Shown: one piece after another, positions 7,901 to 14,024 of the stretch
Position numbering within the stretch: the first letter of the stretch is position 1
How the letters are laid out: each line of letters opens with the position of its first letter
Assembly (NCBI GenBank): GCA_944358685.1
Contig: CALVRQ010000102.1
Coordinates: 1 to 14,593 of the forward strand
DNA: 14,593 nt
Reading direction: 5' to 3'
Source of the DNA: an uncultured Bacilli bacterium
GTDB lineage: Bacteria > Bacillota_I > Bacilli_A > RF39 > UBA660
Position numbers and translations under genes: made by a program
The notes under the pieces: generated by a model
The model's database searches: none
What the model saw: the letters and a program-made list of their open reading frames with translations, nothing else
What the model was told of the DNA's origin: nothing

Positions 7901-8134
7901 ATGCTAAATCATTTGCGCAATTATATTTTAGAAAATGAATTTAAAATAACAATTTTTACGAATAAAATAGATATTGTAAATTATTTAGAAATTGACCACT
8001 TTGATGATGTTAAAATTATAGTCAGATTTACAAACGGTCTTGTAATCATTAAAGGTGAAGATCTAACAATCTCAAAACTACTCAATGATGAACTTTTAAT
8101 TTTTGGACATATTAAAAACATTGAATTTCAATGA
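7901..8134 (+). CDS. yqfC: Sporulation protein YqfC (YabP/YqfC family)
   Basis: The protein has 77 residues and is beta-rich with no signal peptide. The C-terminal half reads TNGLVIIKGEDLTISKLLNDELLIFGHIKNIEF, matching the family pattern G-x-x-x-I-x-G-x-x-L-x-I-x-x-L-x-x-x-E-L-x-I-x-G-x-I-x-x-I-x-F. YqfC is made in the mother cell during sporulation, under SigE in B. subtilis, and its biochemical role is not known. The start is placed at 7901 on the SD GGTGAT (7892-7897), not at 7889. The end overlaps the start of yqfD as ATGA (8131-8134). The gene follows a hairpin that hides its SD, and it begins the cluster running to recO. Confidence 0.85.
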   Translation: MLNHLRNYILENEFKITIFTNKIDIVNYLEIDHFDDVKIIVRFTNGLVIIKGEDLTISKLLNDELLIFGHIKNIEFQ

Positions 8135-9279
8135 TTGATAAGTTAATTAGTAAAATTTCCTTAAATATAAAAGGAAAAAACATCAATAGGTTCATCAAAA
8201 AACTAAGACACAAAAAAATAGAAATTTTATCCTTAAAGTATAAAGACTCAAATCAAGCTGATATCATCATTTATAAAAAAGACTATGAAACAGTTTTAAA
8301 AGTCAAAAGCATTTACGAAATAACTGAACTAGATGTTTTTGGTTTAATTAAAATAAAAAGAAAACTAAAATTGTCTAAGCACATAATAATCATTACTATA
8401 ATTGCCTTTATTTTATTTTTAATCTCTACCCATGTAATTTTTAATGTTGAAATTATTCATTCGAATAAAGAACTTAGAAATCTTCTATTAAACGAATTAA
8501 AACAAGATGGCATCAAAACATTCTCCTTTAAAAAATCATATAATGAAATAAATAAAATAAAAGAAAAAATCTTAAATAAGTATCCAGATAAAATAGAATG
8601 GCTAGAAATTGAAGAAAATGGTACCAAATATACCGTAAGAGTTGAAGAAAGAACCATCGTCACTAAAGATGATAATAGCACACCAAGAAACATAATTGCT
8701 AAAAAAGATGGAGTTTTAAAAAAAGTCATTGCTGAAAAAGGTGATATTGTCAAAGATATGAATGACTATGTCAAAAAAGGTGACTTAATTGTAAATGGTG
8801 AGCTCATCTTTAATGATGAAGTAAAAGGCAAAGTTAGAGCTGAAGGGAAAGCTTTTGCCGAAGTTTGGTATGTTACTAAAACCGAATATCCAATGTTCAC
8901 TTTTAAAGAAGAAGAAACTAATAACACTAAAAACGTTTATGCTATCAAATTTTTAAATCATACATTTGAAATAACCTTTAATAAATTTAAAACAAAAAAA
9001 ATAGAAGAAAAAGAAATATTAAAACATAATCTAATTCCATTTAAAATAGTTAAACAAAAACAAAAAGAAACTAAAGTAACCGATGAAATTCTAACAGTTG
9101 AAGAAGCTATCTCTAAAGCTAAACAAAAAGCCGAAGAAGATATCAAGAACAACCTTTCTAAAGAAGAATACATCATCCGCAGTAAATATTTGAAAAGTAC
9201 TGTAAAAGAGAGTATAGTAGAAGTAGAAATGTTTTTCGCTGTTTATGAAAACATTACTGACTATGCAGAAATTGGGTGA
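8131..9279 (+). CDS. yqfD: Sporulation protein YqfD
   Basis: The protein has 382 residues, close to the usual YqfD length. The N-terminal cytosolic part has about 80 residues, including LKYKDSNQADIIIYKKDYETV. A single membrane helix at about 84-105 is followed by an external part in which WLEIEENGTKYTVRVEERT, DGVLKKVIAEKGDIVKDMNDYVKKGDLIVNGE and the following beta-rich segment form the conserved YqfD core. The C-terminal region is Lys/Glu-rich and helical (EEAISKAKQKAEEDIKNNLSKEEYI). In B. subtilis, yqfD is a SigE-dependent gene needed for efficient sporulation, and its product sits in the mother-cell membrane. It overlaps yqfC by four bases, so the pair is translationally coupled. Its TGA lies five bases before the VanZ-family gene and overlaps that gene's SD. 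Confidence 0.9.
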   Translation: MIDKLISKISLNIKGKNINRFIKKLRHKKIEILSLKYKDSNQADIIIYKKDYETVLKVKSIYEITELDVFGLIKIKRKLKLSKHIIIITIIAFILFLISTHVIFNVEIIHSNKELRNLLLNELKQDGIKTFSFKKSYNEINKIKEKILNKYPDKIEWLEIEENGTKYTVRVEERTIVTKDDNSTPRNIIAKKDGVLKKVIAEKGDIVKDMNDYVKKGDLIVNGELIFNDEVKGKVRAEGKAFAEVWYVTKTEYPMFTFKEEETNNTKNVYAIKFLNHTFEITFNKFKTKKIEEKEILKHNLIPFKIVKQKQKETKVTDEILTVEEAISKAKQKAEEDIKNNLSKEEYIIRSKYLKSTVKESIVEVEMFFAVYENITDYAEIG

Positions 9280-9284
9280 TGTAA

Positions 9285-9896
9285 ATGATTAGAAGAAGTT
9301 TGCTTGAAATATTAGGCCAAGTATGGCCAACCATTCTAATTAGTAGTGTTATTGTCATCAGTATGCGTCTAGTCTATTTAATTAAAAATAAGCAAAAAAT
9401 TGTATTTTATAAAGAATTACTTTCTTTAATATTTATAATTTATGTTTTATGTCTATTCTATGTTGTTACCTTCCAAGATGTCGGTTGGTCTAGTTCTAAT
9501 TTCATTCCATTTAAAGAAATGTTTAGATACAACTTTGGTAGTAATTTATTCATAAAAAATGTCTTAGGTAATATCATCATGTTTATTCCATACGGATTCT
9601 TTGTATCATATTACTTAAATTTAAAAAAGCCTTGGTCTACATTTTTCCTAATTCTCCTAGTATCTGCTTCAATTGAAACTACTCAATTATTAATTGGTAG
9701 AGTATTTGATATTGACGATATCATCTTAAATATCATTGGTGGAATGCTTGGATTTGGAATTTATAAACTTTTAGACATCATAAATAACCATCTTCCAGCA
9801 GTATTGAAAAATCCTATAGTTTATAATATAATTATAGTGTTATGTAGTATTTTAATGGCTATGTATATGTTTAATTTAATAGAATTAGGAGTATAA
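9285..9896 (+). CDS. VanZ-family membrane protein
   Basis: The protein has 203 residues. Hydrophobic helices lie at about 15-33, 43-62, 95-110, 118-134, 144-165 and 178-198. It carries the VanZ signature: NVLGNIIMFIPYGFF (92-106), an Glu in SASIETTQLLIGRVFDIDD (127-145), then ILNIIGGMLGFGIYK. VanZ gives low-level teicoplanin resistance in enterococci, but most family members have no known role and this one has no resistance context. The gene occupies the place where B. subtilis has phoH and yqfF between yqfD and ybeY. The SD GGTGAT (9275-9280) overlaps the yqfD stop. The next gene, ybeY, starts two bases after its stop codon. Confidence 0.85.
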   Translation: MIRRSLLEILGQVWPTILISSVIVISMRLVYLIKNKQKIVFYKELLSLIFIIYVLCLFYVVTFQDVGWSSSNFIPFKEMFRYNFGSNLFIKNVLGNIIMFIPYGFFVSYYLNLKKPWSTFFLILLVSASIETTQLLIGRVFDIDDIILNIIGGMLGFGIYKLLDIINNHLPAVLKNPIVYNIIIVLCSILMAMYMFNLIELGV

Positions 9897-11654: not shown

Positions 11655-11777
11655 ATGAATAAAGAGGATTTATGGAATTTATTTAGAGTAACAGGTAAAA
11701 TAGAATATTATTTAAAATATAAAGAAATAGAGGAAAAAGATGAATCTAGAGGAAGTAACAGGAATAATCGTAAATGA
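11655..11777 (+). CDS. yqzL: YqzL-family small protein
   Basis: The protein has 40 residues. The start MNKEDLWNLFRVTGKIEYYL matches the YqzL family pattern of W-x-x-F-x-x-T-G-x-I-x-x-Y-L-x-x-K-E-x-E, and KYKEIEE follows. The position between era and recO is also that of yqzL in Bacillus. The function is not known. The SD is AGGTGAT (11644-11650), four bases before the ATG. The end overlaps recO by 38 bases, so the C-terminal tail (DESRGSNRNNRK) is dictated by the recO start and is not family-like. It is likely translated in coupling with recO. Confidence 0.8.
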   Translation: MNKEDLWNLFRVTGKIEYYLKYKEIEEKDESRGSNRNNRK

Positions 11778-12480
11778 AACAAATTATGGTGAGACAAGTA
11801 AAATTTTAAATATTATTACTAAAGAAAAAGGCTTAATCTCTGTTATGGCTAAAGGGTGTAAAAACATAAAAAGTCCCTTAAGAAGTGTTTCATCAAAACT
11901 AACCTATGGAACATTTATTATCTATTATAAAGAAAATAAAATTTCTACTTTAAAAGAAGTAAGCGTTTTAGATAACTTTAAGAATCTAAAAAAAGACATA
12001 ACTTCAATCAGTTATGCTGCTTATATGTTAGAACTCAGTGAAGGGGTTATCAAACAAAGTAATAATTCTCATATCTTTGATTTGCTAATTCAAAGCTTAA
12101 AAAAAATAAACCAAGGATTTGACCCATTAATAATCATGAATATTCTAGAACTAAAATATTTAGAATATTTAGGAGTAATGCATATCATTGATTCATGTGC
12201 TATATGTGGTAAAAAAACGGGCATTGTAACTCTATCTAGTTATCGTGGCGGTTATGTCTGTAAAGAGTGCTATACAAATGAAAATATGGTATCAGATAAA
12301 ACGATTAAATTAATTAGAATGTTTTACTATGTTGATATTGAAAAAATATCTAAACTTGATATTAGTCCTAAATCTAAAAATGAAATCAATAGGTTCTTAG
12401 ATGATTACTATTCAAGATATACTGGTTTATATTTAAAAAGTAAAAGTTTTATCAAAAATTTACAAAAATTAGTAAACTAA
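11740..12480 (+). CDS. recO: DNA repair protein RecO
   Basis: The protein has 246 residues, normal for the family. The N-terminal OB-fold begins at about residue 5 with GIIVNETNYGETSKILNIITKEKGLISVMAKG, the conserved RecO start. Helices follow, and a zinc-binding site has CAIC at 153-156 and CKEC at 174-177 with the usual spacing of about 20. RecO, with RecR and RecF, loads RecA on SSB-coated DNA in RecFOR repair. The ATG at 11740 overlaps yqzL by 38 bases, and the purine-rich AGGAAAAAG serves as SD. No terminator is visible after the stop; the glyS promoter begins four bases after it. Confidence 0.93.
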   Translation: MNLEEVTGIIVNETNYGETSKILNIITKEKGLISVMAKGCKNIKSPLRSVSSKLTYGTFIIYYKENKISTLKEVSVLDNFKNLKKDITSISYAAYMLELSEGVIKQSNNSHIFDLLIQSLKKINQGFDPLIIMNILELKYLEYLGVMHIIDSCAICGKKTGIVTLSSYRGGYVCKECYTNENMVSDKTIKLIRMFYYVDIEKISKLDISPKSKNEINRFLDDYYSRYTGLYLKSKSFIKNLQKLVN

Positions 12481-12483
12481 CTA

Positions 12484-12512
12484 TTGACTAAATTAAAATA
12501 AAAACATAAAAT
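12484..12512 (+). promoter_or_regulatory. SigA-type promoter of the glyS T-box leader
   Basis: TTGACT (12484-12489), a 17-base spacer and TAAAAT (12507-12512). The predicted start is near 12519, so the whole leader before glyS is only about 135 nt. The AT-rich sequence upstream (12481-12530) folds into nothing obvious. Confidence 0.6.
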
Positions 12513-12518
12513 TAATAT

Positions 12519-12648
12519 GTATATTGAAAGGCGATGACGGGCTTGGAAACCCCGAGTCATATATTTAAAGTGATTCTTCTAGAATAAATAAGGTGGAACC
12601 GCGGCAAAGCCGTCCTTATATATTACTAGGAGTTTTTTATTAGGAGGT
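12519..12648 (+). promoter_or_regulatory. Glycine T-box leader with an unusually short Stem I
   Basis: The T-box core AGGTGGAACCGCGG (12591-12604) is nearly exact. The antiterminator pairs TAAGG (12589-12593) with CCTTA (12614-12618) and CGGC (12602-12605) with GCCG (12609-12612), exposing UGGA (12594-12597). The A of UGGA fits the U discriminator of bacterial tRNA-Gly. Upstream, Stem I seems to be one hairpin: ATGAC (12534-12538) with GTCAT (12556-12560), and GGG with CCC nearer the loop. The loop CTTGGAAA holds GGA, a Gly codon followed by A, as specifier loops normally show. A small hairpin (ATTCT-TCT-AGAAT, 12573-12585) sits where Stem III would. The alternative fold pairs TCCT (12613-12616) with AGGA (12628-12631) before a T6 run (12633-12638), which gives a weak terminator. 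The SD AGGAGG (12642-12647) could also pair with TCCT, so translational control is not excluded. Confidence 0.85.
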
Positions 12649-12653
12649 AACTT

Positions 12654-14024
12654 ATGGAAAAATTAACAATGGAAAAATTAGTGAGCGTTTGTAAACAATA
12701 TGGTTTCATATTTCAAGGAAGTGAAATCTATGGAGGACTAGCTAATACGTGGGATTATGGCCCGCTTGGTGTAGAACTTAAAAACAATTTAAAAAAAGCT
12801 TGGTGGAAAAAATTTATAATGGAAAGTAAACACAGCTATGGTGTAGATGCAGCTATTTTAATGAACCCAAGAGTTTGGGAAGCATCAGGCCATGTTCAAA
12901 ACTTCTCAGACCCACTAATCGACTGTAAAGAATGTAAATCAAGACATAGAGCCGATAAATTAATTGAAGAATATAACCCTGAAATTGATGGCGACTCTAT
13001 GAGTGATGATGAATTATATGATTATATCATCGAGCAAGGTATCAAATGTCCAAAATGTGGTAAATCAAATTGGACTAAAATCAGACAGTTTAATCTACTT
13101 TTTGAAACAAGTAGAGGAGTTATCAAAGATGATTCATCTAAAGTATATCTAAGAGGTGAGACAGCTCAAGGAGAATTTGTCAACTTTTTAAACGTTCAAA
13201 AATCTATGAGAGCTAAACTACCATTTGGTATAGGTCAAGTAGGTAAAGCCTTCCGAAACGAAATTACTCCAGGAAACTTTACCTTTAGAACGATAGAATT
13301 TGAACAGATGGAGCACCAACTATTCTGCAAAGATGAAGATTCCATGAATTTCTATGAAGAATACAAACAAAAAGCGTGGAACTTCTTAATAAGTTTAGGT
13401 ATCAAAGAAGATGATATTAGATTTAAAGAGCACGAAAAATTAGTTTTCTATTGTAAAGCCGCTTGCGATATTCAGTATAGATTCCCATTTGGCTTTGATG
13501 AACTTTGGGGAACTCATCATAGAGGTACATACGACTTATCTAGACACGAAGAATATTCAGGTAATCAAATGCGTTACCTAGACCCAGACACTAATGAAAA
13601 AATATTACCAACCGTTGTTGAATCAAGCGTCGGAGCCGACCGCCTAGCTCTAGCTATTTTATGTAATGCTTATGAAAATCAAACTCTGGAAGATGGAACC
13701 ACAAGAGAAGTTATGCACTTCCATCCTTTCCTAGCACCTTATAAAGCAGCCATCTTATCACTAGTTAAAAAACATCATAAAGAAAAAGCTGAAGAAGTAT
13801 ACGATATGCTTTCTAAAGACTTCATGATAACTTATGATGAAACAGGAAACATTGGTAAAAGATATCGTAGACAGGACATTGCTGGAACTCCATTTTGTAT
13901 AACAGTAGATGATGAAACCATTAATAATGGTACTGTAACAGTAAGAGATAGAGACACCATGAAACAAGATGTAATTAAAGTAGAAAAATTAAAAGACTAC
14001 TTAAATGAAAAAATAAAATTTTAA
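12654..14024 (+). CDS. glyS: Glycyl-tRNA synthetase, single-chain (dimer) type
   Basis: The protein has 456 residues, the length of the alpha2-type glycyl-tRNA synthetase. It is not the separate glyQ/glyS alpha-beta form of B. subtilis. Class II features are present: GSEIYGGLANTWDYGPLGVELKNN (22-45), motif 1 region; RGETAQGEFVNF (167-178); motif 2 GKAFRNEITPGNFTFRTIEFEQME (197-220); and motif 3 SSVGADRLALAIL near residue 325. A zinc-like insertion has CKEC (91-94) and CPKC (132-135). The C-terminal anticodon-binding domain runs from about residue 352, starting at FHPFLAPYKAAIL, to the end. It charges tRNA-Gly with glycine. The start at 12654 follows AGGAGGT (12642-12648) by five bases. A Gly-specifying T-box sits directly upstream, so the gene should be switched on when uncharged tRNA-Gly builds up. 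Confidence 0.95.
   Translation: MEKLTMEKLVSVCKQYGFIFQGSEIYGGLANTWDYGPLGVELKNNLKKAWWKKFIMESKHSYGVDAAILMNPRVWEASGHVQNFSDPLIDCKECKSRHRADKLIEEYNPEIDGDSMSDDELYDYIIEQGIKCPKCGKSNWTKIRQFNLLFETSRGVIKDDSSKVYLRGETAQGEFVNFLNVQKSMRAKLPFGIGQVGKAFRNEITPGNFTFRTIEFEQMEHQLFCKDEDSMNFYEEYKQKAWNFLISLGIKEDDIRFKEHEKLVFYCKAACDIQYRFPFGFDELWGTHHRGTYDLSRHEEYSGNQMRYLDPDTNEKILPTVVESSVGADRLALAILCNAYENQTLEDGTTREVMHFHPFLAPYKAAILSLVKKHHKEKAEEVYDMLSKDFMITYDETGNIGKRYRRQDIAGTPFCITVDDETINNGTVTVRDRDTMKQDVIKVEKLKDYLNEKIKF

Follow-up and report, generated by a model that had tools for sequence, protein, structure and literature searches.

The glyS leader in the window, the whole 14,593-nt stretch of DNA analysed here, is very probably a transcription-attenuating glycine T-box that has been reduced to its codon and tRNA 3'-end contacts and that switches between Stem III and a terminator, a reading drawn from its sequence and those of its relatives. 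Beyond this single leader, we think it rather likely that Stem III, and not the antiterminator, is the switch throughout this order: the terminator would invade Stem III, together with part of the RRRxG string in some leaders, while helices A1 and A2 stay folded in both states. This would be coupled to a transcriptional T-box with only two tRNA contacts, in which a 7–8-nt U-GGA-A loop mimics an anticodon loop and kisses the tRNA anticodon. The T-box with its ultrashort Stem I lies at 12530–12638 on a low-GC contig, between recO (11740–12480) and glyS (12654–14024), and comprises the following features.

12484..12512, + strand: sigma-70-type promoter TTGACT-17-TAAAAT (sequence match; conserved across short leaders)
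12530..12558, + strand: ultrashort Stem I, ~29 nt (covariation)
12530–12532/12556–12558, + strand: C-stem of Stem I (comparative fold)
12533–12535, + strand: GAU bulge of the Stem I kink-turn (K-turn), with G36.A55 and A37.G54 (comparative fold)
12539–12541/12550–12552, + strand: apical stem, 3 bp (covariation)
12542–12549, + strand: Stem I loop, 8 nt (comparative fold)
12545..12547, + strand: specifier codon GGA, U before and A after (conserved among short leaders)
12568..12572, + strand: AAGUG, consistent with the RRRxG purine string 5' of Stem III (sequence)
12573..12585, + strand: Stem III, AUUCU-UCU-AGAAU, with AA next at 12586–12587 (covariation)
12588..12619, + strand: antiterminator domain (Rfam match, covariation)
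12588–12593/12614–12619, + strand: helix A1
12594–12600, + strand: T-box bulge UGGAACC
12601–12605/12609–12613, + strand: helix A2, G-U at its base
12576..12638, + strand: terminator, pairing the Stem III strand 12576–12586 with 12621–12632 (A12625 bulged), U6 at 12633–12638, A1/A2 nested inside (fold, swap test)
12642..12647, + strand: AGGAGG ribosome-binding site, 3' of the terminator helix (sequence and fold)
12654..14024, + strand: glyS, dimeric-type glycine--tRNA ligase, 456 aa (NF003211, 623.9 bits)

Read 5' to 3', the promoter is followed by the C-stem (GGC/GUC), a K-turn of GAU plus GA/GA, three G-C pairs and the loop CUUGGAAA; then, after a linker of ~9 nt, by AAGUG, Stem III, AA, A1, the UGGAACC bulge and A2; and finally by the strand CUAGGAG, U6, AGGAGG and the glyS start. 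The Rfam model RF00230 matches 12515–12620 (41.8 bits, E 1.7e-6) while skipping most of its own Stem I, in agreement with an earlier note on this DNA that had placed a T-box core, an antiterminator and a short Stem I here. Neither the window leader nor four relatives (34.3–47.1 bits) reach the gathering score of 93, at which short leaders remain unannotated. A below-threshold snoZ247 match in the leader was disregarded. Folding of the whole region 12519–12648 gave a moderate advantage only over shuffles (z −1.96), and support for the structure is comparative. The nearest GlyS relatives come from uncultured Bacilli bins (94, 90 and 88% identity); one further relative, P0004, is 702 aa long, ~250 aa longer than the window's GlyS. 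Elsewhere in the window, 8131–9279 encodes a YqfD-like sporulation protein and 9285–9896 a VanZ-like protein, both below their family cut-offs.

Ultrashort leaders form a family. Among 80 glyS loci, 40 carried one, one (L046) had a long Stem I, six had other leaders, all in bins labelled Clostridia, Clostridiales or Caccopulliclostridium, and 33 had none that we recognised (31 without a T-box core, two with chance cores). When 41 leaders (the 40 plus the window's) were aligned on a 22-pair structure, 95.8% of cells were paired and 106 cells showed changes on both sides, versus 29.4 in shuffles; slid versions of the structure reached at most 54% pairing and at most 22 double changes. Further pair types in this alignment did not go beyond shuffles (34 versus 31.3; 60/500). 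A covariance model built from the alignment matched 209 of 288 genomes of the nearest relative's order at E 1e-8, bearing out the earlier placement of such a T-box outside the Actinobacteria; class-wide it matched 39 of 395 genomes, every one within that same order. In a phylum sample of 344 genomes, which overlaps the order and class samples, 14 were matched at 1e-7, 10 with a short leader and the rest with longer or other T-boxes. These searches used stricter filters, at which weak matches are lost, and a match alone does not establish a short Stem I, since the long L046 matches at 4e-12. The 52 best-scoring new loci (L111–L162) were parsed as short in 50 cases and judged short by eye in two (L148 and L159, which stand outside the counts below), and the short leaders counted number 93, of which 88 are distinct.

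Among 52 short leaders parsed in the genome searches, glyS came next in 37 (36 by pattern, L164 by eye) and behind another gene in 12. The leader precedes a prolyl-tRNA synthetase-like gene in L124 and L125 (L124 by its similar start) and a TIM-barrel gene in L111, where no glyS was found within the stretch. In L112 the intervening gene belongs to the Lysine_decarbox family, and similar protein starts occur in L137, L156 and L163; by eye, L064 and L052 seem to have a small ORF with its own ribosome-binding site between terminator and glyS.

Within Stem I, 91 of the 93 short leaders can form the K-turn stem. The apical hairpin could be folded by script in 89, with loops of 7 nt in 30, 8 nt in 40 and 5, 6 or 9 nt in 19; three apical pairs formed in 87 of these 89, against an average of 28.3 once 3' strands had been exchanged among those 87, and 23 different three-pair combinations were found. 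The loop codon is GGA in 83 leaders and GGC in 10, followed by A in all 93 and preceded by U in 92 (exception L164); the specifier in L023 and L143, and in L133 the base ahead of it, were read by eye. Exchange of GGA for GGC with the gene unchanged is expected of a glycine specifier. The window's Stem I has two irregularities, a C.C pair adjoining the K-turn and a G-U pair in the C-stem, and is too short for the tRNA-elbow motif. Stem I lies ~9 nt from the purine string in the window, and GAUGA lies 52–68 nt from the T-box in short leaders; judged by this spacing, Stem II with its S-turn and the IIA/B pseudoknot are absent from the window leader.

These data sharpen the earlier note, which had drawn Stem I as one hairpin at 12534–12560 with GGA in its loop. 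The short hairpin and the conserved GGA stand, but the pairing does not: the 5-bp AUGAC/GUCAU stem is possible in only 5 of 93 leaders, and the conserved fold consists of the C-stem, K-turn and 3-bp apical stem. Its proposal of a minimal glycine T-box reading the codon from a hairpin loop agrees with the comparative data, both in covariation and in the loop codon, GGN being conserved in 93 of 93 where the note had allowed that homologues might not keep the GGA. The predicted lack of elbow contact also fits, with a Stem I of ~29 nt and a putative promoter directly before it. The K-turn, the leader family and the use of Stem III by the terminator go beyond what the note described.

In the window alone, the promoter match is at chance level (3 found versus 3.7 expected). 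Across the family, 84 of 92 short leaders have a promoter match at 10 or more of the 12 positions within the 65 nt that precede the K-turn; the corresponding share is 4.5% among shuffles, and 1 of 88 control regions taken 140–200 nt further upstream has one. Among the 90 leaders with at least 9 of 12 matches, the −10 box ends 12–35 nt short of the K-turn, the distance being 13–15 nt in 53. We infer a predicted transcript start at ~12519, ~14 nt 5' of the K-turn. With a conserved promoter directly 5' of the K-turn, the 5' strand that a longer Stem I needs would have no space; such a promoter also argues against a start far upstream in recO, which the note had raised as a difficulty for its reading.

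The antiterminator domain fits tRNA-Gly as the putative ligand. Helices A1 and A2 covary among the 41 aligned leaders, and AAGUG at 12568–12572 fits the RRRxG purine string that PMC7583486 places before Stem III. The T-box bulge is UGGA in 90 and UGGG in three of the 93 short leaders; in other T-boxes from such genomes, parsed at 40 loci, it is UGGU in 33 and UGGC in seven. The short leaders' bulge fits U73 of tRNA-Gly, and both tRNA-Gly genes observed in the nearest genome have a U-CCA terminus. Across 16 genomes examined, tRNA-Gly(UCC) was present in 12 and tRNA-Gly(GCC) in 14; tRNA-Gly(UCC) was not found in four, among which are G002 and G003, two of the three closest relatives; the bins may be incomplete. 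We rejected the tRNA anticodon as the feature discriminating GGA from GGC leaders, as both anticodons occur in most of the 16.

An ultrashort T-box could act on translation, as the ileS T-boxes of Actinobacteria do, with the helix downstream of the antiterminator masking the ribosome-binding site, and most translational T-boxes are said in PMC7583486 to carry an intermediate or ultrashort Stem I. We regard this as unlikely here. In 82 of 87 distinct leaders nothing separates the helix from the U-run, and in the window AGGAGG (12642–12647) lies, by sequence and predicted fold, downstream of the helix; moreover, the T-box core sits ~100 nt before the glyS start in L012 and L033, and in the 12 of 52 loci noted above glyS lies behind another gene.

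The strand preceding the U-run is complementary to Stem III, not to the antiterminator 3' strand, and the 5' arm of the terminator comprises the Stem III 5' strand and loop. In a swap test on 88 distinct leaders (the long L046 included), a leader's own duplex averaged −10.25 kcal/mol versus −7.19 for swapped partners, with 0 of 20,000 permutations as low (z −15.1), and own pairing was better than the median swapped partner in 72 of the 88. It was also better than shuffled 3' strands in 86 of 87 leaders. Terminator pair types were counted outwards from the U-run and not by aligned columns, and so describe diversity only; the covariation evidence for this helix is the swap test. Lowest-energy folds contained the Stem III terminator in 84 of 87 distinct short leaders, the window's included (exceptions L045, L137 and L138), and A1/A2 are predicted to stay folded inside it. 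The short leader L067 (2886–2964) lacks the Stem III 3' strand but has a perfect terminator helix, GAGAUUCUA/UAGAAUCUC.

In the textbook scheme, as set out in PMC7583486, the 3' strand of A1 and A2 is the 5' strand of the terminator. Such a classical switch, with the Stem III pairing incidental, has that precedent in its favour, and the classical fold does occur in five leaders of other form from Clostridia-labelled bins (L011, L026, L032, L063 and L078); for the short leaders we consider it very unlikely. Their median hairpin is −1.8 kcal/mol on the A-strand side versus −10.5 on the Stem III side, whereas in long T-boxes from across the phylum the order is reversed (−11.6 versus −2.9), in sets that contained some duplicates and one misplaced locus. 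Likewise, strand swapping weakened Stem III complementarity in short leaders but not in the phylum set (4,453 of 5,000 permutations). Lowest-energy folds of the 24 phylum-wide long T-boxes, parsed from 28 best Rfam scorers and thus leaning to canonical forms, gave no Stem III terminator, 18 classical terminators and six of neither kind. Other T-boxes of the same genomes, of which 29 of 45 loci (26 distinct) were parsed, folded with a Stem III terminator in 17 of the 26 and were positive in the swap test (0 of 5,000), suggesting that the platform is wider than glycine. These other T-boxes (L095–L110 and L200–L228) mostly have UGGU bulges, and many have a Stem III terminator. A decayed remnant without function is hardly credible: most of Stem I is gone and the Rfam threshold is not reached, but the leader covaries and its codon, bulge and promoter are conserved.

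The favoured reading, attenuation of transcription through Stem III, suggests a simple sequence of events. Uncharged tRNA-Gly would pair with the loop through its anticodon and with UGGA through its UCCA end, and this pairing would lock the Stem III–A1–A2 discriminator; the nascent strand could then not invade Stem III, and RNA polymerase would read into glyS. With charged tRNA-Gly there would be no lock, and the terminator would zip from A1 through Stem III and stop transcription. The lack of an elbow contact and of Stem II may be offset by strong G-C pairing at the codon. Predicted energies without tRNA favour the OFF fold of the window leader by 9.4 kcal/mol (−20.9 versus −11.5 for ON), in minimum-energy folds that leave co-transcriptional kinetics out.

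The leader combines features of two known systems. It resembles B. subtilis-type glyQS T-boxes (transcriptional, RF00230) in its glycine codon, K-turn, lack of Stem II, Stem III, T-box bulge and U-run terminator, but lacks the distal Stem I that bears their tRNA-elbow motif (double T-loop), presents its codon in a hairpin loop, and draws its terminator from Stem III and not from the 3' strand of A1/A2. With actinobacterial ileS T-boxes, whose ultrashort class is described in PMC7583486 and PMC10651847 as having a short, K-turned Stem I with the codon in its apical loop, it shares the K-turn under a short hairpin and the codon position; unlike them, it has neither Stem II nor a IIA/B pseudoknot, carries a glycine and not an isoleucine codon, belongs to another lineage, and has an apparent terminator in place of a hidden ribosome-binding site. 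Titles and abstract openings of the open-access literature yielded no short-Stem-I glycine T-box beyond Actinobacteria and no Stem III terminator. The role of Stem III is called unclear in a 2018 paper (PMC6197855), and a Stem III terminator may provide one answer; the leader also offers a natural minimal T-box for studies of structure and kinetics.

Longer T-boxes persist in the same genomes. Rfam found 67 T-boxes in six genomes, four of them short glycine forms at 34–47 bits and 63 others at 64–142 bits spanning ~170–250 nt, and missed the glycine T-boxes of two of the six; within these six, the reduced form used for glycine by what appear to be many genomes of this order coexists with higher-scoring longer T-boxes. 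An ad hoc apical-loop motif of long Stem I occurred in 15 of 36 distinct other T-boxes versus 9 of 93 short leaders, making it a weak discriminator. At two glyS loci, L046 and L167, the glycine T-box shares the K-turn and has GGA-A as its codon, close to the 3' side of its Stem I; unlike the window leader, these T-boxes have a full Stem I in the Rfam alignment, with AGUGA and GUGAAA at its apex. The shared K-turn and codon make the short and long forms look homologous. L046 and L167, the long forms, stand apart in the GlyS tree, inside clades that also hold short forms; a single long-to-short loss was rejected, as the tree needs 17 changes of the short label. By eye, L011, L050, L026, L032 and L078, all labelled Clostridia, contain look-alikes of the ultrashort glycine Stem I and an additional hairpin preceding Stem III; L011, L026, L032 and L078 form a classical terminator when folded.
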